A DNA stretch of 33,058 nucleotides, taken from contig JACEMX010000031.1 of NCBI GenBank assembly GCA_013867335.1, positions 1-33,058 on the forward strand, given 5' to 3'. The translations under genes were made by a program, and so were the position numbers. Below, piece by piece: positions 5,201-20,379 of this stretch. The DNA is from Candidatus Nitrosomaritimum aestuariumsis. GTDB lineage: Archaea > Thermoproteota > Nitrososphaeria > Nitrososphaerales > Nitrosopumilaceae. Position 1 is the stretch's first letter; every line of letters starts with the position of its first letter. A model generated the notes under the pieces. It was given only the letters and a program-made list of their open reading frames with translations, had not been told where the DNA came from and made no database searches.

Positions 5201-6067
5201 TTGGGGAATTCCAGATACTTCGTTATCAAAGTAAGTAGTTGCATGGTATTGTAACAAGTCAACTAAATCCTGAACAATAAGAGGCGGAGTTCCTGCTTCT
5301 TTGCTTTCTTTTAGTCTCTGATTTACTCTAATGATATCTACCATCTTGTGTGTTAAATCATCTTCAGATCGTATTCCTGTTTCAAGGATGATAGATGGTC
5401 TTACCGTTACAGGAGCTACTGGCATTGCCTGTAGGACAAACCATTCTGGTCTTGCAGTGACAGGATCGTATGAAAGAAGTTTCAAGTCATCATCAGTAAT
5501 TTGGGAAAATCTTTCTCTAATGGTAATTGGAAGTAATCTGTGTTCTCCAATCTCTGTCTTTTCTACAAAGATAGTTGGTTTTGTAAATATTAGTTCGTAT
5601 TGTGTTTTTCCACAATGAGGACATTCTTTTGCCTTCTTTGCTTTTTCAATAATTTGTTCTGGAATACGTTTCTGAGAGATTAGGGTGTAGGCCAAATGCT
5701 TTTCTTTAATTGCTTGGAATTCATCAAGATCTTCTTGAGGTACTCTTAATCTAGCACATGATCTGCAAGTTGATTGTAATAGTTTGTGAATATTATCAAT
5801 AAATGCAATATGTAAAATTGGTTCTGCAAGCTCGATATGTCCAAAGTGGCCAGGGCATCTTGCAGCAGTGTTTCCACATGTAAGACATTTTTGTCCAGGT
5901 TCCAGGGTTCCTAGTCGTCCATCCATTAATCCTCCTTGAACAGGCATTCCATCTTCATCATAAGTTTCAGGAGCTGTGATTTCAGCAACAGAGTATTTTC
6001 TTATTTCAGTTGGGGACCATACTGAGAATCTTATCCCGTCAATTGATTTGATTGCTTGAACAGACAT
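2273..6067 (-). CDS. rpoA: DNA-directed RNA polymerase subunit A, unsplit (A'+A'')
   Basis: 1264 residues, the catalytic largest subunit. Visible landmarks in order are an N-terminal zinc site (CLTCGNTAARCPGHFGH, about residue 60); further Cys pairs (CRSCARL, CPHCGKT); the catalytic Mg motif YNADFDGDEMN near 455-465, whose three Asp residues hold the metal; the bridge-helix region (AVRTQQSGYMQRRL, then EYDGTVRDPHG) near 805-845; and the trigger-loop segment (TAQSIGEPGTQMTLRTFHFAG) near 940-965. Most other archaea split this protein into A' and A'' genes. Here one frame covers both, a known trait of Nitrososphaerota. The start codon overlaps the rpoB stop (TAATG), implying translational coupling. 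Confidence 0.98.
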   Translation of the reverse strand: MSVQAIKSIDGIRFSVWSPTEIRKYSVAEITAPETYDEDGMPVQGGLMDGRLGTLEPGQKCLTCGNTAARCPGHFGHIELAEPILHIAFIDNIHKLLQSTCRSCARLRVPQEDLDEFQAIKEKHLAYTLISQKRIPEQIIEKAKKAKECPHCGKTQYELIFTKPTIFVEKTEIGEHRLLPITIRERFSQITDDDLKLLSYDPVTARPEWFVLQAMPVAPVTVRPSIILETGIRSEDDLTHKMVDIIRVNQRLKESKEAGTPPLIVQDLVDLLQYHATTYFDNEVSGIPQAHHRSGRPLKTLTQRLKGKEGRFRGSLSGKRVDFSSRTVISPDPNLDLSEVGVPEQIAMKLTIPEIVTEWNIERMRQLVINGPNKFPGVNYIVRPDGVKIRLDFVEDRSIIAETLEIGYLVERHLADGDIVMFNRQPSLHQMSIMAHYVRVLPGRTFRLHPSVCPPYNADFDGDEMNLHVPQSEEARAEAILLMRVQDQLISPRYGGPIIGALRDFVTGAYLLTKDDTTLSIQEFSNLAMLGGYSGPLPKPGTKTKDGPAYTGKQLFSLFLPKDFNYVITSKWSKGTKGAPKDVVIKQGELISGVIDKASIGAEEPESVLHRIAKDYGNAEAKSFLNSILIMVKQYITHYGFSYGFADLEIPEKNKQQILDDIQETYDVISDLTDQYEKGTLKLTRGMKPEEALEAYIVNELGKARDKAGNTADQSLDQSNSGRIMATTGARGSALNIGQMAGALGQQSRRGNRLHSGYHNRALPHFQEHETNPDAKGFVKSNYREGLSTLEFFFHAMGGREGLVDTAVRTQQSGYMQRRLINALEHIRLEYDGTVRDPHGHIIQFLYGEDGIDVAKSDHGEAFNINRLIESQTIVDSGKKATKDEIEEITKKYTKTFNPRLKKLVTDGLIDSKLSKEGVTIVGKKGLSLYNKAKVEPGQAVGIVTAQSIGEPGTQMTLRTFHFAGIKERNVTLGLPRLIELVDARKKPVTPTMDIYLDEESKKSREKSIEVARNILQTKITDLIEDSETDYNTEIRLILSPNKLRNRGCSITEVETALQSNKKFKTETTGELITLKLVEESDAPTVIAIRNKVLNSTVKGVPDIARVTLVQKDDEWIIQTTGSNIAKVLEVKGIDKKNVRTNNVFEIAGTLGIEASRNALIDELNNTLGDQGLEVDNRYIMLVADLMCSKGYMQQIGRHGIAGTKDSVLARAAFEITVPTIAHAALGGEIEQLKGITENVIVGSNIPIGSGTVDLYMQVSKKKQ

Positions 6068-9000
6068 TATACTTTCTCCTTTATCAATAGTCTTGGGGCC
6101 ACATTCAAACTCTGCATTTCTTGTAATAATAATTTGAATGCATATGCAACAGAGACTGAAGATACTTTGGCTTTATCACCACAAACTCTGCAAACATATT
6201 TTCTTTGTTTAACATCATGATAAGCAACTAATCCACATCTCTCACAAACAAAGATATCAGCTTTGTCAGACTCATCTAGTAATCTATCTTTTAAAATCAT
6301 GGAAGCACCATAAGCAATTAAACAATCTCGTTCCATTTCTCCAAATCTCAAACCACCACCTCTTGCTCTTCCTTCAGTTGGTTGCTTAGTTAACATTTGG
6401 ACTTGACCTCTTGCTCTTGCATGTATTTTGTCTGCAACCATGTGATGTAGTTTTTGATAATAAACAACTCCAATGAAAACTTCTACTGGGAATGCTTTTC
6501 CAGTTCGTCCATCATACATTATTTCTTTACCAGAATATTTGAAACCTGCTGCATCCATGACAGGCTTTACTTCTTCAATCTTTTCTCCAACAAATGCAGA
6601 ACCATCAAATTGACTTCCTCTTAGTGCACCTGCTTTTCCACAAATAGATTCCATCATCATCCCTACTGTCATTCTAGATGGGAAAGCATGGGGATTAATC
6701 AAAACATCTGGGGAAATTCCATCTGCAGTATATGGTAAATCTTCTCCTTTAGCTAAAATACCTAAAACTCCTTTTTGCCCATGTCTTGATGCAAATTTAT
6801 CTCCAATCTCAGGGATTCTCATATCCCTTGCTCTAATTTTATACATTTTTCCACCTTCATTTGATTGAGTCATTACGACAGTGTCTATTACACCAGTCTC
6901 TGATGGTCTAACACCAATTGAAGTATCACGTCGGTATGGTCCAGTTGATTCAAACTCTCTGTATTCTTCCATAAATCTTGGTGGACTTGTTTTTCCTATT
7001 AGGATGTCACCACCTTTTACTGAAGCCTCAGCTGCTACAACACCATCTTCTTCTAAAAGACGATATGCTTTTTCGCCTTTGTATCCTCTAATGTTATCTT
7101 CAGCATTAGGAATTTCAAAATTATCACGCATTCCACCTGGGTATTGTTTTGCTTCTGCATCATAAACTCTAAAGAAGAATGTTCTTCCTAAACCTCTATC
7201 AACTGAAGACTTGCTCAAAACAATTGCATCTTCAATGTTGTAACCATCAAAAGGTAAAACAGCAACAACACAATTTTGACCAGCAGGTCTGTCTTCTAGT
7301 CCAAGTAATTTCATTGCTTTTGTGTTTACCATAGGAGTTTGAGGATATAGCATCAAGTGTTGTCTGACATATGTACTGGTATTCATCATAGGTGTGGAAA
7401 ATCCTAAACTTTGTTTTGCCATTGCAGATTCGTATGTGTTTCTTGGAGATTGGTTGTGTTCTGGATATGGAATAATAGAAGCGCCAGCTCCCAGAATTGA
7501 TGGTGGGAATACTTCAAGATGGGTGTGTTTCTTGGTATCTTTTTCATCTAACGTAACATAGCAGTTTTCTTCTTCATTTGCATCAATTAATTCAAGAACT
7601 CCCATTCTCAAAAGATCATTCCATGAAAGAAGTTTCTTTGCCACTTTGTCTAAAAGTTCTTGAGTGAGTAATGATCTGCCATCTTTGATAATTATTAACG
7701 GTCTAAGAACTCGACCTGCATTACAATTTACATAGAGCCTTTTTGTTGCACCTTCAACATCTGATTGATGGAATGAAATTCCAACATGTGGATGAATTTT
7801 TGAATTCCTCCTTAACTCTCTTAGGGACTCGGCTAGTTGTTCGCCATCTTTGAAATATCCAATAAGACGACCATCAACAAATATTCTGGTTCCATCTTTT
7901 TTCAAGTCCTCTTTTGCATCAAAGAAATGTACCGTTCCAAGATCGTATAGTTTTTCAACAATTTCTTCAGATGGTATGTTAACTGAAATAATTCCTGAAA
8001 GTGCGAGATTTTTAACAAGGCCACAGTTTGAGCCTTCTGGTGTTTCACTTGGACAAATTCTTCCAAAGTGAGTAGCGTGAAGGTCTCTTGCCTCAAAGTT
8101 TGGTTGGGTTCTACTTAGAGGAGATTGAATTCTTCTAAGATGACTGATTGTTGAAAGATAATTTGTCCTATCAAGTAGTTGTGTTACACCTACTCTTCCT
8201 CTACCCCAGTTACCGGTTGCAATTGCATTGTTTAATTTATCACTAATAATTCCAGGACGAATTGCCGCAGCTACTGCATTGATTCCTCTTTTTTGTCCAG
8301 ATCTCTCTAATTGGTATTTCATATCTCGGACCAAATTTCTAAAGGCAGTTCTGAAAAGATCTGCTAACATTTGTCCTGCAAATTTGATAACCTTATTTCC
8401 ATAATGGTCCTTGTCATCAGGATCAATCCAACCTAGTCTTAACTCTAATAATTTACAAGCAGCTTCTCCCAAAAATTGTGCTTTTTCTTTTCTGTTTTCT
8501 GGATGTTTACCCAAGTGTGGTAATAAACCCCAGTCCAAAAGAGTTTCAGCTCTTTTTATCTGGAACTCTTCTAACATACCTGGAGCGATACGTTTACTGA
8601 TATACACAATTGAGTCTTTTGATGTTGGAACATCGGCTGCTTTTTCAAATGACCCTTCTAATTCATCTTGAACTTCATCAACTAAAGAAACTGCTGCTGC
8701 AATTTCTTTGTCTGATTCTAATCCAAGTGCCCTCATTAAAATTACAACTGGGATGTCTACTGGAGAGCCAGGAATTCTAGCTACAATAAGACCATCATTT
8801 TTCATTACTAGTTCTAATTTTGCACGGTAACCAACAATTGAAGAATATACTTTAGCTTTGAAAACAATATTTCCACCAACAGTTTCTCTATCGACAATTA
8901 TTTTGTTGTAAGAAAGATCTTCTAATCCAACAATTACTCTTTCAGAACCGTTAATGATAAAGTAACCACCAGGATCATTAGGATCCTCTCCATGTTCAAC

Positions 9001-9414
9001 TAATTTTTGGGATGAAAAGTTATTCAAAATACAGGCATTTGATTTTGCCATAACTGGTACATCTCCGATGTGTACAAATCTTGATTCAAGAATTTTTCCA
9101 TCCTCAATCACACTTGCCTCCATCATGACAGGTGCAGAGTATGAAACATTTCTTAGTCGAGCTTCTGCAGGAGTAATATGAGTAATAGAACCATCAAGCT
9201 CCATCATTCTTGGTTGTTGTAGTTTTACCTTACCTAGTTGAATTTTGTATGGATATTCTGCATTCTCAATTTCAATTTGTCCGACTTCGTTAATGATACT
9301 TTGAAGACCTCTTTCCAAAAATTCATCAAATGAATTAAGATGCTGTCTTGCAATTCCTTCTCTTTTGAGAATGTCTTGAATAATTGGCCAGCGTTTAGTT
9401 GAAGGATCTACCAT
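6067..9414 (-). CDS. rpoB: DNA-directed RNA polymerase subunit B, unsplit
   Basis: 1115 residues, the second-largest catalytic subunit, not split into B' and B'' as in many euryarchaea. Visible conserved blocks include HATHFGRICPSETPEGSNCG and NLAL near the middle, the GDKFASRHGQKGVLG block near 880, QPTEGRARGGGLRFGEMERD near the C-terminus, and a terminal zinc ribbon (CERCGLVAYHDVKQRKYVC then CGDK). The ATG directly follows the rpoH TAG stop (TAGATG), and its own stop shares one base with the rpoA start. The three subunits are therefore one transcription unit. Confidence 0.98.
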   Translation of the reverse strand: MVDPSTKRWPIIQDILKREGIARQHLNSFDEFLERGLQSIINEVGQIEIENAEYPYKIQLGKVKLQQPRMMELDGSITHITPAEARLRNVSYSAPVMMEASVIEDGKILESRFVHIGDVPVMAKSNACILNNFSSQKLVEHGEDPNDPGGYFIINGSERVIVGLEDLSYNKIIVDRETVGGNIVFKAKVYSSIVGYRAKLELVMKNDGLIVARIPGSPVDIPVVILMRALGLESDKEIAAAVSLVDEVQDELEGSFEKAADVPTSKDSIVYISKRIAPGMLEEFQIKRAETLLDWGLLPHLGKHPENRKEKAQFLGEAACKLLELRLGWIDPDDKDHYGNKVIKFAGQMLADLFRTAFRNLVRDMKYQLERSGQKRGINAVAAAIRPGIISDKLNNAIATGNWGRGRVGVTQLLDRTNYLSTISHLRRIQSPLSRTQPNFEARDLHATHFGRICPSETPEGSNCGLVKNLALSGIISVNIPSEEIVEKLYDLGTVHFFDAKEDLKKDGTRIFVDGRLIGYFKDGEQLAESLRELRRNSKIHPHVGISFHQSDVEGATKRLYVNCNAGRVLRPLIIIKDGRSLLTQELLDKVAKKLLSWNDLLRMGVLELIDANEEENCYVTLDEKDTKKHTHLEVFPPSILGAGASIIPYPEHNQSPRNTYESAMAKQSLGFSTPMMNTSTYVRQHLMLYPQTPMVNTKAMKLLGLEDRPAGQNCVVAVLPFDGYNIEDAIVLSKSSVDRGLGRTFFFRVYDAEAKQYPGGMRDNFEIPNAEDNIRGYKGEKAYRLLEEDGVVAAEASVKGGDILIGKTSPPRFMEEYREFESTGPYRRDTSIGVRPSETGVIDTVVMTQSNEGGKMYKIRARDMRIPEIGDKFASRHGQKGVLGILAKGEDLPYTADGISPDVLINPHAFPSRMTVGMMMESICGKAGALRGSQFDGSAFVGEKIEEVKPVMDAAGFKYSGKEIMYDGRTGKAFPVEVFIGVVYYQKLHHMVADKIHARARGQVQMLTKQPTEGRARGGGLRFGEMERDCLIAYGASMILKDRLLDESDKADIFVCERCGLVAYHDVKQRKYVCRVCGDKAKVSSVSVAYAFKLLLQEMQSLNVAPRLLIKEKV

Positions 9415-9823: not shown

Positions 9824-9838
9824 TTGAGCGTACAATTG

Positions 9839-10654
9839 ATGAATACTCATCTATCGGTGTTTGCCTTATTTGCGATCATGGTTGCAAGTATTGGAATGGC
9901 ACCAGCATTTGGACAAACAGTACAGCCAATCGTTGTTACTACTGACAAGACATCCTATTCAGAGGGTGAAACAATCATGGTGACAGGAGAAGTAAGTGAA
10001 ATTCTTTTCGGCTATGCCATTAGCGTCATGACAATTGCTCCTAACGGAAATCTTGTATCTATCGACCAAGTTATGGTTGGATCAGATAAAACCTTCAGCG
10101 CAGAGCTTTCCGCAGGAGGTTCACTCATGAAACAAAGTGGTGAATACACGATTCAAGTATTGTATGGAACCGAAAATCGAACTGCTGAGACCACGTTTAC
10201 CTTTGGAGGTTCTTCCGTAGTGTCTGGCCCAGAAGGTCTTGTACCAGTAGCTGGAACTGACTTTATGGTAGGATACGAAATCACAGGTGGAAAACTTATC
10301 TCAATTACGCCTGATGTAGACGCAAATTCTCTCATCATAGCAATAGATGCAACAGATGATGGTCAACTAACCATTACCTTGCCAAGAGAATTGATTGATG
10401 CAAAGATTGGAGATGAGGATGATGATTTCTTCGTCTTAGTTGATGGTGAAGAAGTTGACTTTGATGAAACAATGACATCCACAGACAGAACTCTAGTTAT
10501 ATCATTCCCAGCAGGTGCTGAAGAGATTGAAATTATCGGTACACATGTAGTCCCAGAATTTGGTGCAATTGCAGCTTTGATTCTAGCAGTAGCAATTATC
10601 TCAATAATTGCAGTTTCTGCAAAATCAAGACTTAGCATTATGCCAAGATACTAG
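9839..10654 (+). CDS. PEFG-CTERM surface protein 1
   Basis: 271 residues from ATG 9839; the in-frame TTG at 9824 is less likely because the TATA box spacing points to the ATG. The signal peptide ends near MAPAFGQ. An Ig/MG2-like module follows (TDKTSYSEGETIMVTGEV ... APNGN ... GGSLMKQSGEYTIQVLYG). A second beta region has the acidic stretch DEDDDFFVLVDGEE. The tail is PEFG (residues 239-242), a hydrophobic helix, and the basic end SAKSRLSIMPRY. This tripartite signal is the PEFG-CTERM type, thought to be recognised by an archaeosortase that cleaves and anchors the protein at the cell surface. No sortase is in the window. It is the first of four adjacent paralogues. Confidence 0.85.
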   Translation: MNTHLSVFALFAIMVASIGMAPAFGQTVQPIVVTTDKTSYSEGETIMVTGEVSEILFGYAISVMTIAPNGNLVSIDQVMVGSDKTFSAELSAGGSLMKQSGEYTIQVLYGTENRTAETTFTFGGSSVVSGPEGLVPVAGTDFMVGYEITGGKLISITPDVDANSLIIAIDATDDGQLTITLPRELIDAKIGDEDDDFFVLVDGEEVDFDETMTSTDRTLVISFPAGAEEIEIIGTHVVPEFGAIAALILAVAIISIIAVSAKSRLSIMPRY

Positions 10655-10680
10655 ACCTACAACTTTTTTTCATTTTTTAA
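10550..10680 (+). repeat. 131-bp segment identical to 12402-12532
   Basis: Covers the PEFG tail codons, the stop codon and 26 bp of T-rich 3' flank of PEFG gene 1. I compared it base by base with 12402-12532 and saw no mismatch. Confidence 0.9.
10662..10680 (+). terminator. T-rich terminator after PEFG gene 1
   Basis: Two T runs (ctttttttcattttttaa) begin 8 bp after the stop codon, typical of intrinsic termination in archaea. The same element follows PEFG gene 3. Confidence 0.5.
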
Positions 10681-10692
10681 ATATATAAATAG
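10681..10692 (+). promoter_or_regulatory. Probable TATA box of PEFG gene 2
   Basis: ATATATAAATAG; its ATAAATAG part is centred about 27 bp before ATG 10717. This gives the gene its own promoter, directly after the upstream terminator. Confidence 0.5.
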
Positions 10693-10716
10693 CCATATAG
10701 CGCGTGTTGAATCAGG

Positions 10717-11574
10717 ATGAATTTTAAATATTCAACAACATCTATTGCTTTAGTTCTAATGGCATTCTCAGTTTTGTCATTAAACTCAATACAGCAAGAT
10801 GCTTTTGCAGAATTTCAAGGAATGTCTTTGACTGCAGAAGCTGCAGATGGATCAGATATCATCAAAATTCACGGTCAAACAGCATCACAGGTAACAGACA
10901 TTACATTTACTGTAACATCACCTGATGGATTCAATGTCTTGGCAGCAGATCAAATAAAACCAGATGCACAAGGATTCTTTTCCACAGAATTCAAAATAGG
11001 TCCATCATGGAGTCAAGATGGTTTCTACACAATAGAAGCTATGCAAGGCGTAAGAGCAAATCCCTTGTACACAATGTCAGTATCAGTCGAAATAATCGAT
11101 GGTATGACACTTGAAACTTTAGAAACAGAATCTAATTTAGTAACAGGAATATTTGTTCCAGCACAAGAAGAAGTTGCTAAAAAAGGACTTACAATGAAAG
11201 CAAATGCTATGGAAGGTTCTACCACGATAGGAATTATCGGAAGCTCAGATAGAACTAATTTGGATGTTACATTGAAAGTTATTGCTCCAAATGGAAATGT
11301 TGTATCTGTAGAACAAATCACACCAGATTTGGACGGTAAATTTGCCAAAGACATTACAACCGGTGGTCCACTTTGGACACAAGACGGAATCTATACCGTA
11401 TCAGCACAGCAAGGTGAATCTCCAGATCATAAAGCTTCAGTAGAAGTTGAAATTGTAGACGGTGTTGTTATTCCAGAATTTGGTGCAATTGCAGCTTTGA
11501 TTTTAGCAGTAGCGATCATGTCAATAATCGTAGTTTCTGCAAAATCAAGACTTAGCATTATGCCAAGATACTAG
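10717..11574 (+). CDS. PEFG-CTERM surface protein 2 (two tandem modules)
   Basis: 285 residues. The signal peptide ends near QQDAFAE. Two copies of the same beta module follow, near residues 35-125 (LTAEAADGSDIIKIHGQT ... SPDGFNV ... SWSQDGFYTIEAMQG) and 150-240 (LTMKANAMEGSTTIGIIG ... APNGNV ... LWTQDGIYTVSAQQG). The tail is PEFG at residue 253, a hydrophobic helix and SAKSRLSIMPRY, the same sorting signal as its neighbours. The 3' end is similar to copies 1 and 3 but carries several silent and missense differences. It has its own TATA-like box. Predicted to be a cell-surface protein; ligand unknown. Confidence 0.85.
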   Translation: MNFKYSTTSIALVLMAFSVLSLNSIQQDAFAEFQGMSLTAEAADGSDIIKIHGQTASQVTDITFTVTSPDGFNVLAADQIKPDAQGFFSTEFKIGPSWSQDGFYTIEAMQGVRANPLYTMSVSVEIIDGMTLETLETESNLVTGIFVPAQEEVAKKGLTMKANAMEGSTTIGIIGSSDRTNLDVTLKVIAPNGNVVSVEQITPDLDGKFAKDITTGGPLWTQDGIYTVSAQQGESPDHKASVEVEIVDGVVIPEFGAIAALILAVAIMSIIVVSAKSRLSIMPRY

Positions 11575-11603
11575 ATCCATACTTTTTTCAATTTTTAAAT
11601 ATA

Positions 11604-11612
11604 CATAAATAG
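11604..11612 (+). promoter_or_regulatory. Probable TATA box of PEFG gene 3
   Basis: CATAAATAG, within a longer AT-rich run from 11590, is centred about 28 bp before ATG 11637. It is close in sequence to the box of PEFG gene 2. Confidence 0.5.
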
Positions 11613-11636
11613 AGATTCTTGTGAATCGCATACAAG

Positions 11637-12506
11637 ATGAACAACCGTACGTCGTTCGCGCTACTGGCCGTTTTGACTGCAGTCGGTACTTTAACTGTGT
11701 CATCAGCATATGCTCAATCAGCATGTCCTGATTGTGAATTAGATGATCCAAGAATAATTGCAAAGCAATTATTGTTGGAAGATATTCCGATTTCACTTTG
11801 GACAGATAAAGCAACATATGATCATAAGGACACAATTATAGTAGAAGGCCGTGTAGCAAATGTAGTTTCTGGGGTTCCAGTAACACTTACTGTTATGAGT
11901 TCATTAAATTCAGTTATCACAATTGACCAAGTGGATGTTGATGATATGGGGAATTTTAGAACCACATTCAGTACAGAAGGTAATCTTTGGAAGTATGATG
12001 GAACATATTTCATTAAAGCCAATTATGGAAGTGCTGAGAAAAGCAACAAAGTATTGGTAGAATTAGTAAATGGAATGGTTTCCAAACCAACACCTGGACA
12101 ACCAAGCAAAGTATGTGGCACATCAGAATTATCCGTAATGGGTAATTGTGTACCATATAGTATTTCAGGAGGAGTGGTAACAGGAGCATCTGTTAACACT
12201 AACGATAATTCTCTTATCGTAAACATTAGTGCAAATGAAGATGGAACACTCACATTAAATCCATCCAAGAACGTTCTCGACGGTGCCTTTATGGTACTTG
12301 TTGATGGAGAAGAATGGGATGATGTAGAGATTAATGGAAATGAAATTTCTGTAATGTTCCTTGCAGGCGCAGAAGAGATTGAAATTATCGGAACATTTGT
12401 TGTCCCAGAATTTGGTGCAATTGCAGCTTTGATTCTAGCAGTAGCAATTATCTCAATAATTGCAGTTTCTGCAAAATCAAGACTTAGCATTATGCCAAGA
12501 TACTAG
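11637..12506 (+). CDS. PEFG-CTERM surface protein 3
   Basis: 289 residues. The signal peptide ends at SSAYAQ. A short CPDC motif follows directly, which could form a disulfide or bind metal outside the cell; this is inference. A module resembling that of copy 1 comes next (TDKATYDHKDTIIVEGRV ... NLWKYDGTYFIKANYG), then a Cys-containing linker (KVCGTSELSVMGNCVPYSISGG) and a second beta region with FMVLVDGEEW. The tail is PEFG at residue 257, a hydrophobic helix and SAKSRLSIMPRY. Its last 131 bp, including flank, are identical to gene 1, although the bodies have diverged strongly. Confidence 0.85.
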   Translation: MNNRTSFALLAVLTAVGTLTVSSAYAQSACPDCELDDPRIIAKQLLLEDIPISLWTDKATYDHKDTIIVEGRVANVVSGVPVTLTVMSSLNSVITIDQVDVDDMGNFRTTFSTEGNLWKYDGTYFIKANYGSAEKSNKVLVELVNGMVSKPTPGQPSKVCGTSELSVMGNCVPYSISGGVVTGASVNTNDNSLIVNISANEDGTLTLNPSKNVLDGAFMVLVDGEEWDDVEINGNEISVMFLAGAEEIEIIGTFVVPEFGAIAALILAVAIISIIAVSAKSRLSIMPRY

Positions 12507-12532
12507 ACCTACAACTTTTTTTCATTTTTTAA
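12402..12532 (+). repeat. 131-bp segment identical to 10550-10680
   Basis: Second copy of the repeat, covering the PEFG tail, stop codon and 3' flank of PEFG gene 3. The flanking bases differ from copy 1 at both ends. Confidence 0.9.
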
Positions 12533-12577
12533 TTTTAGATAGTAAAGGAGATATAGAAACAATTAAGCATATTTTTT

Positions 12578-13384
12578 GTGAGCAGTAGGGGTTTCATAGT
12601 TTTAATTTTGTTAATGTCATCTACAATACCTGTTTTTGCACAAAGTGACATTCCTTTTCTCACAGTTAAAACAGATGATAATCATTATGATGAAGGAGAT
12701 ACCATTGTAATTTCAGGCCAAGTGGCCACGGTAATTGCCGATACTCCAATTATTCTTCAAGTATGGTTTGAAGGAAATATGATAGATATTGCTCAATTTT
12801 TCCCAGCACAAGATGGTAGTTATTCTCATACAATAATTGCAGAAAAACCATCTTGGAAACAAGAAGGAGAATACCTAGTGCGAGTTTCCCATGGAGAAGG
12901 AAACATTGCTGAAACCTCAATTGAGTTTACACCAAAAAAAGAAATTCTTGAAACAAAAGATAGTTTTGAAGTCCAAATCCCAAATGGTGGAACTTTTGAT
13001 GTAGAATATTCCATCAGAGGAGGAACGGTCAAAGATATGATTCTCATTCCGGATGATTACACCCTAGAAATTTCAATTGATGCTCCTGATGAGGGAAGTA
13101 TATCCCTTAAACTTCCAAGAGAATCAATAGATGCAGAAAAACCAAATGGTCAAGACGAAATATTCATTGTTTTGCTTGATAATGTACAATTTCCTTACCA
13201 AGAAACAGAAACTAACAATCAATTAAGATTGATTACAATAAATTTTGAAGAGGGCACCTCAATTATAGAAGTGATTGGAACTTTTGTAATACCCGAATTT
13301 GGATCAATGGTAATGGTTATTTTACTAATCGGAATAGTATCCGTAATAGGAATTACAAAAAATAAATTTCAAATTAAAATTTAG
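12578..13384 (+). CDS. PEFG-CTERM-like surface protein 4 (divergent tail)
   Basis: 268 residues from GTG 12578. A TATA-like stretch (GATATAGAAA, about 12549-12558) lies 26 bp upstream and supports this start. The signal peptide ends at IPVFAQ. One module has the same layout as copies 1-3 (TDDNHYDEGDTIVISGQV ... SWKQEGEYLVRVSHG), then a second beta region with PRESIDAEKPNGQDEIFIVLLD. The tail keeps PEFG at residue 239 and a hydrophobic helix, but ends in TKNKFQIKI instead of the MPRY end of its neighbours. It ends 8 bp from the convergent cysteine desulfurase gene. Probably an older paralogue of the array. Confidence 0.8.
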   Translation: MSSRGFIVLILLMSSTIPVFAQSDIPFLTVKTDDNHYDEGDTIVISGQVATVIADTPIILQVWFEGNMIDIAQFFPAQDGSYSHTIIAEKPSWKQEGEYLVRVSHGEGNIAETSIEFTPKKEILETKDSFEVQIPNGGTFDVEYSIRGGTVKDMILIPDDYTLEISIDAPDEGSISLKLPRESIDAEKPNGQDEIFIVLLDNVQFPYQETETNNQLRLITINFEEGTSIIEVIGTFVIPEFGSMVMVILLIGIVSVIGITKNKFQIKI

Positions 13385-13392
13385 ATTTTGTG

Positions 13393-14550
13393 TTAAAAAG
13401 AATATTTTTCTTTAAATGGAGAAACGGCACGAAGTTCTTCTACAACTGTCTTTAAAATTTTTACAGTTTCATCCATCTCTTCTATAGTATTTGAAATTCC
13501 CACAGTTAATCTAAGAGACCCGGTAATTTGTTCATGGGAGAAACCCATGGCCTGAAGAACATGAGATGCTTTTTGTATGTGAACAGAGCATGCAGAGCCA
13601 GTAGATGCGGCTACTCCGTTTTCGTCTAATTTAATTAAAAGATCTTCTCCATTTACACCAAGAAAAGTCAAGTGCACGTTATTTGGCAATCTTTTGTCAG
13701 GATCACCATTTAGCGTAACACTGGAAATTTCTTTTAGAATTTTATTTGAAAGGTGATTTCGTAATTCAGTCATTTTAGAAATATTGTTTACGAGATTTAA
13801 TCTTGCAATTTCGCATGCCTTGCCAAACCCAACTATATTAGCCACGTTTTCTGTTCCAGAGCGCAATCCCTTCTCTTGGCCACCTCCCAAAATTATAGGA
13901 TCTATTGAAATTCCGTTTTTAACATATAATGCTCCTACTCCTTTTGGACCGTTAATTTTATGAGAAGACATTGATAACAAATCTATTCCCAATTCTTTCA
14001 CATCAATGGGGATTTTACCTACTGCCTGAACTGCATCTGTATGAAAAATGATATTCCTTTTTCTGCAAATTTTTGCTATTTCAGAAATAGGTTCAATGGT
14101 ACCCACCTCATTATTTCCAAACATTATAGAAACTAACGATGTATTTTCATTGAGATTATTTTCAAGGGTTGCAGGATCAACCAATCCAAATTTATCTACA
14201 GGTAAATAAACAACATCAAATCCATCTTTTTCGAGATTTTTACATGGCTCTAGGATAGCATCATGTTCAATTAAGGAAGTGATAATTCTAGAGTTGGGAT
14301 TTTTTTTTCCAATCCCACGTAGAGCAGTATTATTTGATTCGGTCCCACCAGAAGTGAATAAAATTTCAGATGGCTCTGCATTAATTAATTTGGCAACTTC
14401 TTTTCTTGCTTTTCCTATTGCTTTTTGACCAAGCCGACCATATCGATGGATAGATGAGGGATTTCCGAATTGTTCCTTAAGATAAGGAAGCATAGCATCT
14501 AAAACTTCGCCATGAATTTGTGTGGAGGCAGCATTATCTAGATAAATCAA
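13393..14550 (-). CDS. Cysteine desulfurase (NifS/IscS type)
   Basis: 385 residues, a complete PLP-dependent cysteine desulfurase that moves sulfur from L-cysteine onto its own Cys as a persulfide. Landmarks are the YLDNAAST start, TSGGTESNN near 66-74, EHDA (His96), TDAVQAVGK (Asp172, Gln175), the PLP lysine in SSHKINGPKG (Lys198), GGGQEKGLRSGTEN, and the catalytic Cys321 in TGSACSVHIQKASHVLQAMG. The start overlaps the larE stop by 4 bp (ATGA), so it is translated with larE. That position suggests it supplies sulfur for the NPN cofactor, though a general Fe-S role is equally possible. Confidence 0.93.
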   Translation of the reverse strand: MIYLDNAASTQIHGEVLDAMLPYLKEQFGNPSSIHRYGRLGQKAIGKARKEVAKLINAEPSEILFTSGGTESNNTALRGIGKKNPNSRIITSLIEHDAILEPCKNLEKDGFDVVYLPVDKFGLVDPATLENNLNENTSLVSIMFGNNEVGTIEPISEIAKICRKRNIIFHTDAVQAVGKIPIDVKELGIDLLSMSSHKINGPKGVGALYVKNGISIDPIILGGGQEKGLRSGTENVANIVGFGKACEIARLNLVNNISKMTELRNHLSNKILKEISSVTLNGDPDKRLPNNVHLTFLGVNGEDLLIKLDENGVAASTGSACSVHIQKASHVLQAMGFSHEQITGSLRLTVGISNTIEEMDETVKILKTVVEELRAVSPFKEKYSF

Positions 14551-15347
14551 TCAGCAATCACGTTAATTTTTCCGGGTTTGTATCCTTCTGAATCTATTAT
14601 GACTTCAGAAAATCCAATTAATTTCAATTTGTGTGTAATTTCATCCAAAATTCCTGGAGAGTGTAATTTTGATATATCCTCTTTATTTACTTCAATTTTT
14701 GCTACACCTTGAATATCACGAACTCTAACTTGTTGTAATTTTGTAGTTTGTTTTACCATTTTTTCACCATATTCTATTCGTGCTAATCGCTCAGAGGTTA
14801 TCTGCTGCCCCCATGGAATTCTAGAGGCCAAACAGGAGTTTGATGGTTTGTCAAAAACAGACAGTCCTACAGATTTAGCAATTGTTCTAATCTCAGATTT
14901 GGTAAAATTTTTTTCAACTAATGGACTACGTATTCCATTTTGTTTTAGGGCAGCAATTCCTGGCCTGTAATCGCCCAGATCATCGACGTTTGTCCCATCT
15001 ACAATAAAATCAATTTTTTTCTCTCCTGCCAAATTTACGAGATGATTTCCTAATTCCTGCCTACAGTAAAAACACCGATTTGAATCATTTTTTACAAAAT
15101 TTTCGTTTTCCAATTCATTGTAATCTAAAAGAATTTGAGATATTCCTATTTCTTTGCAAATTTGTTTTGATGTGTCAAGTTCTTCTTGAGATAGAGTTTT
15201 GTAATCAGCTGTGACGGCAATTGCAGAGGAGCCTAATTTTTGAAAAGCAGCATATGCTACTAGGGCACTATCAACTCCCCCTGACAGGGCAATTAAGACA
15301 GTGTTTTTGTTCTCAAACCAATTTACAAGATCATCAAGTTTGGCCAT
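14547..15347 (-). CDS. larE: Pyridinium-3,5-bisthiocarboxylate nucleotide synthase LarE
   Basis: 266 residues of the PP-loop ATPase family. The SGGVDS loop (residues 22-27) binds ATP; DGTNVDDLGDYRPG (117-130) and SCLASRIPWG (171-180) are LarE signatures. LarE adenylates the two carboxylates of the LarB product and inserts sulfur. Cys172 matches the sacrificial sulfur-donor Cys of Lactobacillus LarE. This protein also has a CFYC pair (Cys92, Cys95). Three such cysteines are the pattern of LarE proteins that use a [4Fe-4S] cluster and act catalytically, a family inference. It overlaps larC by 14 bp upstream and the desulfurase by 4 bp downstream. Confidence 0.9.
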   Translation of the reverse strand: MAKLDDLVNWFENKNTVLIALSGGVDSALVAYAAFQKLGSSAIAVTADYKTLSQEELDTSKQICKEIGISQILLDYNELENENFVKNDSNRCFYCRQELGNHLVNLAGEKKIDFIVDGTNVDDLGDYRPGIAALKQNGIRSPLVEKNFTKSEIRTIAKSVGLSVFDKPSNSCLASRIPWGQQITSERLARIEYGEKMVKQTTKLQQVRVRDIQGVAKIEVNKEDISKLHSPGILDEITHKLKLIGFSEVIIDSEGYKPGKINVIAD

Positions 15348-16572
15348 TTCCTACATTCCTTTTGAGTATTTCTTTTCTAATCAATGATTCTGTTTCTCTA
15401 ATTGACTTTTTAAGAAAATCTGAAACTAGTTTCAAATCATCAAATTCCACCTTAAAGTTTGATTTGCCTTGAAAAAATGAAACCTTGTATTTGATATCGA
15501 ATTCTTTTCCATCAAAAGTTAATTTTATCTGATGCATAGAACGTGGAAGAATTATCCTATCAGAGAGAGTAACTCGTATGCCTAAAGTTCCTGTCTCATC
15601 TATTAAGATACTGGCAAGACTATCATAATTTTCATTATCGCAGATTACCTTTACAAGATTAGTTGGCCTTCCTTTTTTCGTAATTCCATGAGTAATGAAA
15701 GCATCTTTTGCTCCATTATTCATCATTTTTTCTATTAAATTCCCTAAAACTTCTCCGGATACATCATCTACATTTGTTTCAAGAACAATAACTGAATCTG
15801 AATCAAAAGTATTTTTCTTCAATCCTTTTACAATTTTTAAAACATTGGAGAATTGTTCAAAATCTTTTTTCCCAGCTCCATATCCAATTGATTCAATTTT
15901 CATAGAAGGATAGTAATTGATAGGAGAGTTTGTCAGATTTACAAGAATGCAAGCACCGGTGGGTGTGGTTAACTCGCTTTCAGCATTGCGTCCATGAATG
16001 ATTAATTTTGAATTTTTGAAAATCTCTAAAATAGCACTTGCAGGATTAGACATGACTCCATGTGAAAATGAAACTGTGCCATTACCCACACAAATGGGCA
16101 TTGAAAAAATTTCGTCTTCAAAAAGTTTCAGATCATCTGATGCAATAGCGACGCCTATAACATCAATAAGAGTGTCAATGCTGGACGCCTCATGAAAATG
16201 AACAGATTCTTCTGGAATACCATGGACTTTAGATTCTGCAGAAATTAAAGAGTTAATGCACCCCTCTGCAAAATTTTTTGCTTTTGCAGACAAATTAAGC
16301 TCAATTAAGGAATTTTTTATAGCTTCTTTGATTTCAGAGCCTTTTCTTTCGTGAGTGTTTTCTTCAATTTCTAAAATCAGTGATGTGGATTGTATTCCAT
16401 GTTTATCGATTTTGGTAAAATCTAATTTTTTAATTGTTGAATCGGGTAAAAATTTACCGCATTTTTTTATTCCTTCAAGGATTTTATTTTTATCTGCGCC
16501 AAGGTCAATTAAGGCACACAGAGCCATATCCCCAGAAATTCCCGCAATGTAGGGATCCACAACAATTACCAT
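15334..16572 (-). CDS. larC: Nickel insertion protein LarC
   Basis: 412 residues, a CTP-dependent nickel chelatase that completes the nickel-pincer nucleotide. Family landmarks are the N-terminal DPYIAGISGDMALCALIDLG, HFHEASSIDTLIDVIG near 125-140, TPTGACILV, VLETNVDDVSGEVLG, and HGITKKGRPTNLVKV. Both halves (LarC1 and LarC2) lie in one frame. In Lactobacillus plantarum they need a programmed frameshift; here none is required. It is the first gene of the larC-larE-desulfurase operon. The minus-strand TATA-like sequence TTATATG (16597-16603) sits about 27 bp from the ATG, so the transcript is probably leaderless. The ATG lies inside an inverted repeat (16570-16587). Confidence 0.92.
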   Translation of the reverse strand: MVIVVDPYIAGISGDMALCALIDLGADKNKILEGIKKCGKFLPDSTIKKLDFTKIDKHGIQSTSLILEIEENTHERKGSEIKEAIKNSLIELNLSAKAKNFAEGCINSLISAESKVHGIPEESVHFHEASSIDTLIDVIGVAIASDDLKLFEDEIFSMPICVGNGTVSFSHGVMSNPASAILEIFKNSKLIIHGRNAESELTTPTGACILVNLTNSPINYYPSMKIESIGYGAGKKDFEQFSNVLKIVKGLKKNTFDSDSVIVLETNVDDVSGEVLGNLIEKMMNNGAKDAFITHGITKKGRPTNLVKVICDNENYDSLASILIDETGTLGIRVTLSDRIILPRSMHQIKLTFDGKEFDIKYKVSFFQGKSNFKVEFDDLKLVSDFLKKSIRETESLIRKEILKRNVGNGQT

Positions 16573-16587
16573 GAATTAAAATTCATG
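16570..16587. promoter_or_regulatory. Inverted repeat over the larC start
   Basis: CATGAATT-AA-AATTCATG: two 8-bp arms around 2 bp. It covers the larC start codon and predicted transcription start, between larC and the divergent malate dehydrogenase. It could be an operator, but AT-rich palindromes arise easily by chance. Confidence 0.3.
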
Positions 16588-16633
16588 AAAAATGCATATA
16601 AGTTCTGTCTAAGTGTATTTTAGTTTCATTAGA

Positions 16634-16641
16634 TTTAATTA
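16634..16641 (+). promoter_or_regulatory. Probable TATA box of malate dehydrogenase
   Basis: TTTAATTA is centred about 26 bp before ATG 16664, supporting that start over the in-frame GTG at 16613. Confidence 0.4.
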
Positions 16642-16663
16642 TCGAAAATTTTCACCGAATTTT

Positions 16664-17578
16664 ATGATTACAATAATAGGATCTGGAAAAGTAGGCGGAG
16701 ATGCAGCATTATTTTCAGCATTAAAAAGATTAGACGATCAAATTTTACTTCTTGATGTAGTAGATGGACTCCCACAAGGAGAAGCCATGGATATCAACCA
16801 CATGCTATCTGAGCAAGGGATTGATGTAGAAGTAAAAGGTTCAAATAATTTTGCAGATATGCAAGGCTCCAACATTGTTGTGGTGGTAGCAGGTTCTGGA
16901 AGGAAGCCAGGTATGACCAGAATGGATCTTTTAAAAATTAATGCGAATGTTGTGAAAAGCGTAGTTGAAAACATCAAAAAATATGCAAGTGATTCAATGA
17001 TTATTCCAGTAACAAATCCGTTGGATCCAATGGCTTATGTTACATACAAAGCATCAGGATTTGATAAAACAAGAGTTTTTGGAATGGGAGGAATGTTGGA
17101 TCTATCAAGATTTAGACAATTCATACATGAGGCTACAGGTCATTCTAGAGATTCAATTCGTGCTTTAGTGATAGGAGAGCATGGAGAAAACATGTTACCC
17201 TTGCCAAGATTTTCCTCAGTATCTGGAATTCCTCTTTCTACATTCTTGCCAAAGGAGAAATTAGATGAACTAGTACAAAATACAAAACAAGTTGCAGCAA
17301 AGGTAATTGAGCTCAAGGGTGCAACTGTCCATGCACCGGGAAATGCAATTTCTGCTATTGTTGAATCAGTCGTAAGAGACAGAAAACAAGTCATTCCAGT
17401 AGCCACATTTTTGGATGGAGAGTATGGACATTCCGATGTTACGATAGGAGTTCCTGCAATAATAGGAAAGAATGGAGTAGAGAAGATTATAGAGTTAGAG
17501 CTAAACAGTGAAGAAAAAACAGCTTTTGATGCAGGTGTAAAAAATGTTAAAGACGCAATCTCAGGAATTGAGATCTAA
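16664..17578 (+). CDS. mdh: NAD-dependent malate dehydrogenase
   Basis: 304 residues from ATG 16664. An in-frame GTG at 16613 would add 17 residues ahead of the Rossmann strand, and the promoter spacing argues against it. LDH/MDH superfamily landmarks are GSGKVG (6-11), an acidic end of strand 2 (LLLDVVDG, Asp31), Arg80 in [10 protein letters not shown], where malate enzymes have Arg and lactate enzymes Gln, Arg86, Asn118 in VTNPLDPM, Asp146 and Arg149 in LDLSRFR, and the catalytic His173 in GEHGENMLP. It interconverts malate and oxaloacetate. Asp31 favours NAD over NADP. It is divergent from larC and 33 bp before larB; any functional link to NPN synthesis is unproven. Confidence 0.92.
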
Positions 17579-17611
17579 GCATTTTTTTATTCAAAAATTC
17601 TGTAACAATCA

Positions 17612-18394
17612 TTGGAAATTGAAGAAATTTTAAACTCATTAGAAAAAGGAAAGATCTCATCGAATACTGCAAAGAAACTTTTGTCATTATACTCGATTGA
17701 AAAAATTGAAAACATAGCACAAATAGATGTAAATCGAAAGAAAAGACGCGGAATTCCCGAAGTTGTTTTTGCCGAAACTAAGCAATTAGAGGAAATAAAA
17801 AAAATTATCAAAGCCACTTTGGAAAAGAATAACTCTCTAGTAGTGTCCAGAATAAAAAAAGAACATTATTCAAAAATTATTTCCTTTTCTAAAAGATTAA
17901 AAATCAAAATAAAAACCGGAAAAAATTCCTCATCTCTATTATTGTATAAAAAACCGATAAAATTGCATGGAGGTAAAGTAGGAATCATTACAGCTGGAAC
18001 TTCAGATATTTCAATAGCAGAAGAAGCCAGATTGATGTGTGAGGCAATGAATTGTAAATGCTTTACCAGTTATGATGTGGGTGTAGCAGGAATTCAGAGA
18101 ATATTTCCCATATTAAAAAAAATGGTCAATGAAGAAGTAGATTGTATAATTGTAGCAGCAGGAATGGAGGCGGCTCTTGCAACCCTTGTTTCATCTTTGG
18201 TAGACATTCCTGTAATCGGATTGCCTACCTCTATCGGATATGGATATGGGGAAAAAGGAATAGCAGCTCTTGCATCAATGCTTCAGAGTTGTTCATTAGG
18301 ATTATCAGTTGTAAATATTGATGGAGGTATTGCTGCAGGAGCCATTGCAGCAAATATTGCCAATAGGACAGTCTGGAAAAACCTAAAAAAATAG
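17612..18394 (+). CDS. larB: Pyridinium-3,5-biscarboxylate mononucleotide synthase LarB
   Basis: 260 residues. LarB carboxylates and hydrolyses nicotinic acid adenine dinucleotide, the first NPN step. The C-terminal half is PurE-like: GIITAGTSDISIAEEA (about 125-140), CIIVAAGMEAALATLVSSL, PTSIGYGYGEKGIAALASML and NIDGGIAAGAIAANI. The N-terminal half is the LarB-specific region, ending in RGIPEVVFAETK. The start is TTG 17612; an in-frame stop at 17603 excludes an upstream start and no early ATG exists. It lies 33 bp after malate dehydrogenase, possibly with its own weak TTTTTATT box. It completes the larB, larC and larE set, on the opposite strand from the other two. Confidence 0.92.
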   Translation: MEIEEILNSLEKGKISSNTAKKLLSLYSIEKIENIAQIDVNRKKRRGIPEVVFAETKQLEEIKKIIKATLEKNNSLVVSRIKKEHYSKIISFSKRLKIKIKTGKNSSSLLLYKKPIKLHGGKVGIITAGTSDISIAEEARLMCEAMNCKCFTSYDVGVAGIQRIFPILKKMVNEEVDCIIVAAGMEAALATLVSSLVDIPVIGLPTSIGYGYGEKGIAALASMLQSCSLGLSVVNIDGGIAAGAIAANIANRTVWKNLKK

Positions 18395-18449: not shown

Positions 18450-18458
18450 CATATATAA
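18450..18458 (+). promoter_or_regulatory. Probable TATA box of the radical SAM gene
   Basis: CATATATAA ends only two bases before ATG 18460, too close for that codon to be in a leaderless message. It is about 24 bp from ATG 18478, which it supports as the real start. Confidence 0.5.
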
Positions 18459-18477
18459 CATGCCAAATCGAATCAGA

Positions 18478-20061
18478 ATGATATTGTCGGGTAAAAGAAT
18501 TGTTCTTACTGCTGATAGAAGCTTAATGACTAATTATCGAGGAAATTTTCTTTATGGATTTATTGCATGTGGTCCTTATGAGGTTCTACCAGAATGGGTT
18601 TTCGATAAAGTATTCTGTCCTGCTGTAGAAACAGACCCAATAACTGGAGAGTCAAAAGTCGCCCAAGTAGGATTACGTAGGGTAGAAAGCTCTCTTTTAC
18701 AAGGATACAACAGAGATGAGGTATTTGTTGCAAATCCTGACATGTTAGAAAAATCCATTGGGCCAGATACCAAAGTTGTTGGAATTAATGTAATGGATCC
18801 ACTTGGAATGGCTCCTGTGACAACTACAATGTCACCTGAAAAATTATCTTATGTTGCAATGAAATTTAAAAAAATGTGTGCAAGTATTATTCAGCTCAAA
18901 AAGAAATATGATTTCAAAGTCGTAGTAGGTGGTAACGGGGCATGGGAACTAGCAAAATCAGATAGAATGAAAATTCATGGAATCGATACTGTTGTGGTAG
19001 GAGAAGCTGATGAGCTTGCTTTGGATTTATTCCATGATCTGGAAAAAGGAGATGCTCCAGAATTGATGCATTGTTTTGTAAGAAATATTCAAAATATTCC
19101 AACAATTGAAGGACCTACAATTAATTCGTTAATTGAAGCTATGAGAGGATGTGGTAGAGGATGTGATTTTTGTGACGTTAACAAAAGATCCAAAAAAGAT
19201 CTTCCCTTAGACAGACTACAACACGAAGCAAAGATAAATCTAGATTATGGATTTGATTCTATTTGGTTACATTCTGACGAAATGTTGCTTTATGGATGTG
19301 ACAATAGAGATTTTGTTCCAAATAGAGATGCAATAACAGAACTATGGAGTGGCCTCAAAGGATTAGGTGCTAATTTTGTAGGTACAACACATATGACATT
19401 TTCAGCAGTTGCAGCAGATGAAAAGTTGATGCAAGAAATTTCTCACATTAATCAACAAGACCAAACTGGAAGATGGCTTGCAACTAATTTAGGAATTGAA
19501 ACTGTTGCTCCTAACTTGGTAAAAAAACATCTTGGTGTAAAAACGAAACCATTTTCTCCTGAAGAATGGGGAAGTGTTGTAAGAGAAGGAGCTAAAATTC
19601 TCAATGAAAATCATTGGTTCCCTGCTGCTACAATAATCATCGGATGGCCTGACGAAACACCGGATGACATTCAACATACAATTGACATGATAAGTGATTT
19701 CAGAGAGATGGACTTTAGAGGATTAGTTGCTCCGTTACTGTATCAGGACTTTAGTGAGAAAAATTCCATGCACTTTGGAAATCTAAATGAAGCTCAATTT
19801 ACATTGTTTTGGAGATGCTGGGAAAACAATCTACGTGTAATTAATGACATTATTCCAATTATACTTAGAAACAAAACCTATGGCCCTCCCATGAAAGTTT
19901 TCATGTATGGAATTCTAAAAGCTGGAACATGGGCGATAATGAGATATTTGAGAGGTTTATGCAAAGATCTCTTCAATGGACGAACACCAGATGAGATTAT
20001 TGACAAATATGCTCGTGCCAGATCCGTATCTGCACCAAAAATTCAAACAAAGAAACTATAA
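18478..20061 (+). CDS. B12-binding radical SAM protein, possible lipid-modifying enzyme
   Basis: 527 residues from ATG 18478; ATG 18460 would add six and is disfavoured by the TATA position. The N-terminal half fits a cobalamin-binding domain (VVGINVMDPLGM ... VVVGGNGAWELA ... TVVVGEADELALDLF). The radical SAM cluster motif is C-x3-C-x2-C (CGRGCDFC, Cys225, 229 and 232), followed by barrel segments such as SIWLHSDEMLLYGCD and AATIIIGWPDETPDD. The C-terminal region (about 420-510) is helical and unlike methylthiotransferases. Cobalamin radical SAM enzymes of this layout in archaea include the GDGT ring synthases GrsA/GrsB, a fitting role in this lineage, but sequence inspection alone cannot prove it. 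Its 3' end overlaps the next gene tail to tail by 6 bp. Confidence 0.85.
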   Translation: MILSGKRIVLTADRSLMTNYRGNFLYGFIACGPYEVLPEWVFDKVFCPAVETDPITGESKVAQVGLRRVESSLLQGYNRDEVFVANPDMLEKSIGPDTKVVGINVMDPLGMAPVTTTMSPEKLSYVAMKFKKMCASIIQLKKKYDFKVVVGGNGAWELAKSDRMKIHGIDTVVVGEADELALDLFHDLEKGDAPELMHCFVRNIQNIPTIEGPTINSLIEAMRGCGRGCDFCDVNKRSKKDLPLDRLQHEAKINLDYGFDSIWLHSDEMLLYGCDNRDFVPNRDAITELWSGLKGLGANFVGTTHMTFSAVAADEKLMQEISHINQQDQTGRWLATNLGIETVAPNLVKKHLGVKTKPFSPEEWGSVVREGAKILNENHWFPAATIIIGWPDETPDDIQHTIDMISDFREMDFRGLVAPLLYQDFSEKNSMHFGNLNEAQFTLFWRCWENNLRVINDIIPIILRNKTYGPPMKVFMYGILKAGTWAIMRYLRGLCKDLFNGRTPDEIIDKYARARSVSAPKIQTKKL

Positions 20062-20379
20062 TTTTTCTATTGCAACATCTGCAATGGTATTTCTCTTTGG
20101 AGTTAAAGATACGAAATAACTCTTATCTGCTCTTTCAATAGAATCAACTTTTTTGAATGATTTGGAGGCTACATCAAACTCATAAATCCCAGGTTCGAGT
20201 TCGCCTTTTGCATAAATCATTAGATATGTATCACCATTTGATCCACTTAATGGAATAAATGACATCACATAGCCTTTGTAGGAATTAACGGGCATAGTAT
20301 TTTTCATGGGTGGTGCTGCTGATGCCATATACATGAAAACATCCTCAATTGTATCAAATTCTTCATATTCTATTTGCAT
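20056..20379 (-). CDS. Conserved-looking small protein, function unknown
   Basis: 107 residues, not recognised. It has no signal peptide or membrane helix. The N-terminal part is acidic and helical (YEEFDTIEDVFMYMASAAPP). The rest looks like alternating strands (KGYVMSFIPL, DTYLMIYAKGEL, GIYEFDVASKSF, KSYFVSLTPKR), suggesting a small beta-rich cytoplasmic protein. A TATA-like box (TTATTATAC, 20401-20410) lies 26 bp upstream of the ATG, which supports a real leaderless gene. Its last 6 bp overlap the 3' end of the convergent radical SAM gene. Confidence 0.65.
   Translation of the reverse strand: MQIEYEEFDTIEDVFMYMASAAPPMKNTMPVNSYKGYVMSFIPLSGSNGDTYLMIYAKGELEPGIYEFDVASKSFKKVDSIERADKSYFVSLTPKRNTIADVAIEKL

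Follow-up and report, generated by a model that had tools for sequence, protein, structure and literature searches.

The radical SAM protein encoded in the stretch of 33,058 nucleotides from Candidatus Nitrosomaritimum aestuariumsis analyzed here (contig JACEMX010000031.1; hereafter, the window) is a member of the Grs-type family, to which the GDGT ring synthases GrsA and GrsB belong. It falls in a clade of its own that is restricted to ammonia-oxidizing archaea (AOA), and it is a good candidate for a lipid enzyme. We consider that it is probably a radical SAM enzyme of the Grs type, with a cobalamin-type fold, which modifies the tetraether lipids that span AOA membranes, and that it is a candidate for the AOA-specific ring chemistry. 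Thaumarchaeal homologs of the Grs proteins have already been reported (PMC8473941, PMC11442133), so the family as such is known; our study adds the clade assignment, the start codon and a test of the distribution. The features of the gene and its neighbors are collected in Table 1.

Table 1. Position of the Grs-type radical SAM gene, its parts and its neighbors in the window.
Feature	Coordinates	Strand	Basis and remarks
Grs-type (GDGT-ring-synthase-like) radical SAM gene	18484..20061	+	525 aa, start TTG 18484; PF04055, GrsA/GrsB as best match, start codons of relatives
TATA box	18451..18458	+	Centre ~29 nt upstream of TTG 18484; sequence and conserved spacing
N-terminal alpha/beta domain, cobalamin-binding-like fold	18484..19098	+	Residues 1-205; AlphaFold, Foldseek, weak PF02310
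Radical SAM core	19135..19692	+	Residues 218-403; PF04055, 6.5e-9
C-x3-C-x2-C [4Fe-4S]/SAM cluster motif CGRGCDFC	19150..19173	+	Residues 223-230; invariant in 27 family members
Two long C-terminal helices	19789..19971	+	Residues 436-463 and 468-496; AlphaFold; like those described for GrsA
larB, upstream neighbor	17612..18394	+	NF033503, 242 bits; judged not functionally linked
Convergent gene for a 107-aa protein	20056..20379	-	Adjoins the radical SAM gene in Nitrosopumilaceae and Nitrososphaeraceae, including N. viennensis

The reading frame of the radical SAM gene is intact on the forward strand up to its stop at 20061. To map its start, the upstream DNA of the orthologs was aligned on the conserved VLTADRSL block, which gave 51 distinct sequences. 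At window position 18484, TTG stood in 28 of them and ATG in 18; two Nitrososphaeraceae rows that we inspected had GTA or GTT there, with an ATG one codon upstream. Moreover, 46 of the 51 orthologs have a TATA-like hexamer whose center precedes this codon by 24-30 nt. Because of the conserved TTG or ATG and the spacing of the TATA box, we place the start, judging from the relatives, at TTG 18484, which gives a protein of 525 aa, and the spacing suggests that the mRNA may be leaderless. The initial annotation had noticed a TATA box at 18450-18458, which we find at about 18451-18458 and conserved in the relatives, and had moved the start to ATG 18478. It was right in discarding ATG 18460, for which the TATA box leaves no room and with which the relatives disagree, but the codon it chose instead was wrong: of the 51 distinct sequences, only that of the window has ATG at this column, and an in-frame stop makes it unusable in 13 of the 51 relatives. 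Expression constructs beginning at ATG 18478 or ATG 18460 would carry two or eight stray codons, respectively. A scan for sigma-70-type promoters and terminators gave no signal above shuffled sequences, as expected for archaea.

With regard to the architecture, the protein belongs to the radical SAM superfamily, with PF04055 scoring above its cut-off (36.6 bits vs 29.5), and of its cysteines only those of the cluster (Cys 223, 227 and 230) are invariant in all 27 rows of the family alignment. The AlphaFold model (mean pLDDT 90.5) has two long helices at its C-terminal end. Both the C-x3-C-x2-C motif and the long helical C-terminus had been read from the DNA in the initial annotation, and both are evident here. 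The B12-binding domain of the same annotation stands as a fold, since the top Foldseek matches of the model are MgmA (9ccb, the first), MiaB, TsrM, AprD4, OxsB and TokK, with the cobalamin enzymes MgmA, TsrM, OxsB and TokK among the nearest. At the level of sequence it does not: PF02310 (12.4 bits vs 32.1) and TIGR04013 (56.6 bits vs 251) remain below threshold, and the DxHxxG motif is absent from the window protein in the family alignment. Thus, the model supports a cobalamin-type radical SAM architecture, and cobalamin binding itself is not supported by the fold, though the protein may use cobalamin. To our knowledge, AprD4 and MiaB do not use B12. Four further cysteines (C29, C45, C132 and C272) are invariant in the aligned AOA orthologs, not family-wide, and could possibly form an extra metal site.

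In the genome that we take to be S. acidocaldarius DSM 639 (G135), the family has two full-length members, one at 199 kb and the other at 1,354 kb, the places expected for Saci_0240 and Saci_1585. These locus tags denote GrsB and GrsA, respectively (PMC8473941). When these two proteins were used as queries, the window protein was the first match in its genome for both GrsA (E 8.5e-59) and GrsB (E 1.2e-64). It was followed by a paralog on another contig (C135 of G000), after which the next radical SAM match dropped to E 0.027 for GrsA and 1.7e-5 for GrsB. All other radical SAM proteins that PF04055 detected in the window genome belong to named families, namely CofG, CofH, an MqnC/MqnE-like protein, tRNA methylthiotransferase, Elp3, RlmN, TYW1 and QueE-like, AmmeMemoRadiSam and KamA-like proteins. 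The window protein is placed in the Grs type by its homology to GrsA and GrsB, which spans the full length and exceeds that of these radical SAM proteins, and by the two C-terminal helices of the model, as described for GrsA. The helices of GrsA are elongated and have been proposed as a membrane anchor (PMC11186832). The NCBIfam search of the window protein reached only models below cut-off (TIGR04013, TIGR04014 and MiaB-type models) and none named for Tes, and no Tes chain was among its PDB matches up to E 1.

In the family tree (67 rows), the AOA clade of the window protein is fully supported, with a protein of the non-AOA genome G041 as its nearest relative. The larger clade around it (100/99) consists mainly of Nitrososphaeria and is distinct from those of GrsA (100/100) and GrsB. 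The AU test rejected a union with GrsA (p 1.8e-64) and with GrsB (p 2.6e-4), p-values somewhat weakened in that the tested groups were partly picked after viewing a first quick tree. The window protein is therefore regarded as an ortholog of neither, and function is not transferred by orthology. In addition, the radical SAM homolog Saci_1785 has served as an outgroup to the Grs proteins (PMC8473941), and therefore homology at such depth does not fix the substrate. Reciprocal searches, tree and fold all agree with the class containing GrsA and GrsB to which the protein had been assigned at first; a phylogeny of the kind suggested at that time as a check, here with GrsA and GrsB, puts it within the Grs-type family, in its own clade rather than with GrsA or GrsB.

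We surveyed 275 genomes of the order with completeness of at least 85%, 221 in the four AOA families and 54 others, for which 40 no-match genomes were counted as non-AOA families from the order of their handles. The survey includes genomes that we take as N. maritimus, N. viennensis and N. gargensis. The ortholog was present in 211 of the 221 AOA-family genomes, including all 31 single-contig (closed) ones, and absent from the 54 non-AOA genomes, four of which have distant homologs only. True gene loss in the ten exceptions was rejected: every one of them is a draft assembly, the paralog is present in most, and in one a fragment of the gene with 96% identity lies at a contig edge. The gene for AmoA (amoA) shows the same family pattern (200/221 and 0/54). 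GTDB contigs gave 252 relatives, and the named records in the best 80 of these are Nitrosocaldus, Nitrosothermus, Nitrososphaera, Nitrosotenuis, Nitrosarchaeum, Nitrosopumilus and Cenarchaeum, and the remaining records are unnamed Thaumarchaeota and archaea. This AOA-restricted distribution bears out the link to the crenarchaeol-making lineage that the initial annotation had drawn. The AOA-only pattern, compared on genes alone on the non-AOA side, would fit an enzyme of crenarchaeol, and the paralog shows it too. Co-occurrence with crenarchaeol amounts to a single event, at the AOA ancestor in the tree, and is common to the paralog and hundreds of AOA genes. Distant members of the broader clade are found in the non-AOA genomes G041 and G051.

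The window genome contains exactly two Grs-type proteins, the window protein and the paralog (568+ aa); an apparent third homolog on contig C104 proved to be the end of this paralog, the two contigs overlapping by 43 bp. The paralog is likewise AOA-universal and Grs-type and is 32-34% identical to the window protein, but it is longer, with inserts, and its core is nearer to GrsA. The identity to GrsA in the catalytic core is 40-43.5% for the paralog vs 33.5-35.5% for the window clade, and a C-x-V-T-L-R stretch after the cluster is common to GrsA and the paralog. A recent duplication from this paralog was rejected by the AU test for union with the window clade (p 9e-102, subject to the same reservation about the choice of groups). 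In the genome that we take to be N. viennensis (G587), two copies of the paralog (frames of 568 and 595 aa) lie 30 kb apart at 2.35-2.38 Mb, and the ortholog of the window gene lies at 0.65 Mb. By interpolation of locus tags, NVIE_028400, which has been published as the GrsA of N. viennensis, falls at about 2.30 Mb, near the paralog copies, and the paralog is probably of this published GrsA type. Two grs clusters in AOA, GRS-A and GRS-X, are described in PMC11442133; the window clade is one of these two, probably GRS-X, a match of names that we infer. Most mesophilic AOA have two Grs-type proteins, whereas thermophilic ones (Nitrosocaldus; G037, G053 and L045-L051) have as many as six, among them a pair in tandem.

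Our best guess from these comparisons is that the window protein is a GDGT ring-forming enzyme, leaning to the cyclohexane step of crenarchaeol. AOA lipids have up to four cyclopentane rings, with one cyclohexane in crenarchaeol, and a review expects AOA to have a GrsA homolog and, for the cyclohexane, a further Grs protein. Crenarchaeol is known from AOA only, and the enzyme for its cyclohexyl ring was still called unknown in a paper of February 2026. The two universal, AOA-restricted Grs-type proteins may correspond to these two kinds of ring, cyclopentanes and cyclohexane, and of the two the window protein is the stronger candidate for the chemistry specific to AOA, because the paralog is more GrsA-like. 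In the proposed mechanism, the [4Fe-4S] cluster bound by the CxxxCxxC motif would cleave SAM to give a 5'-deoxyadenosyl radical, which would take hydrogen from an unactivated carbon in a biphytanyl chain of GDGT. The enzyme would reach this carbon from the surface of the membrane with the help of its two long helices at the C-terminus, and closure of a C-C bond would then give the ring. A more specific proposal, that the window clade is the missing enzyme closing the cyclohexane of crenarchaeol and a third Grs-type clade that arose with AOA, is put forward only tentatively. The evidence for this leaning is indirect, both proteins having the AOA pattern and thermophilic AOA having further Grs-type copies. 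A lipid phenotype was found for no member of the window clade. Crenarchaeol is the signature lipid of AOA and the basis of the TEX86 temperature proxy. The Grs-type candidates for its cyclohexyl ring are now narrowed to two AOA-restricted proteins, of which the one in the window is not a GrsA ortholog, and this narrowing reduces the ring question to an expression experiment with two genes.

The roles of the two proteins might be exchanged, so that the window protein would be the AOA counterpart of GrsA and make the C-7 cyclopentanes (up to four), with the cyclohexane made by the paralog or by an unrelated enzyme. This arrangement seems to us rather unlikely, given the nearer core of the paralog with its shared C-x-V-T-L-R stretch and the position of NVIE_028400 away from the window ortholog, but it gains from full-length alignments to GrsA and GrsB, which give more bits for the window protein than for the paralog. 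The occurrence of the broader clade in non-AOA genomes also fits it, as does the conservation of the window protein among orthologs, which is at least as strong as that of the paralog (71.5-94% vs 71-95%).

AOA also make methoxy archaeol. Hydroxy-GDGTs are likewise reported from AOA in the literature, and the nearest solved folds include the methylases MgmA, TsrM and TokK, such radical SAM folds often being methylases. These facts leave some room for a non-ring, AOA-specific lipid change, such as methylation or hydroxylation of ether lipids, which we nevertheless hold to be improbable, as the relatives nearest in sequence among those studied by experiment are ring synthases. Quite improbable, too, is a role outside lipids as an MgmA-like cobalamin-type radical SAM methylase of protein or RNA. 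MgmA is the top fold match and the NCBIfam search reached nothing closer than the sub-threshold models above, but the structure alignment with MgmA has only 14% identity, and by sequence MgmA scores 18 bits against about 200 bits for GrsA or GrsB, and the two ring synthases match the same sub-threshold models.

The neighborhood contains a nickel-pincer cluster at 13393-18394, in which larE-larC and larB stand with genes for a NifS-type desulfurase and, in the middle, a member of the malate/lactate dehydrogenase family that could be a partner linked to NPN. A service of the radical SAM protein to this Lar pathway is very improbable: larB ends only 66 bp upstream of ATG 18460, with larC, larE, NifS and malate dehydrogenase alongside, and the gene order is kept in most Nitrosopumilaceae inspected, but the block is inverted relative to the radical SAM gene in G020, the linkage is absent outside Nitrosopumilaceae and one Nitrosothermus-like genome, and LarB is kept 106 kb away in Nitrosocaldus and at least 129 kb away in Nitrososphaeraceae. 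LarB is present in all AOA genomes checked, and because it is unlinked in these two groups we read no functional link. We also know of no Lar pathway elsewhere that needs such a radical SAM enzyme. On the other side, the convergent gene overlaps the end of the radical SAM gene; its product is conserved in AOA, has a confident, beta-rich model (pLDDT 89.5) and gave no Pfam or NCBIfam match. Further upstream, four tandem paralogous secreted proteins are encoded on the forward strand at 9824-13384, the last with a PEFG-CTERM sorting signal. In Nitrosocaldus/Nitrosothermus-like lineages (L044, L069 and L070), the radical SAM gene is near two large rpoB/rpoA-like genes, and the same two genes lie at 2273-9414 of the window.

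Finally, among known systems, GrsA (Saci_1585, the GDGT C-7 ring synthase of S. acidocaldarius) resembles the window protein in near-full-length homology (E 8.5e-59, 32% identity in BLAST), the same cluster motif and the two long C-terminal helices. It differs in the residues after the cluster (CSVTLRPTR, compared with CDVNKRSKK in the window protein), in a C-terminus only 12% identical and in its separate clade (AU p 1.8e-64). GrsB (Saci_0240, the GDGT C-3 ring synthase) is similarly close (E 1.2e-64, 31%), but its union with the window clade is rejected (p 2.6e-4), and no more than four cyclopentane rings are reported for AOA. The cobalamin radical SAM enzymes MgmA, TsrM and OxsB share the overall fold (TM 0.49-0.56 by query length), whereas their identity to the window protein is 11-14% and they act on other substrates.
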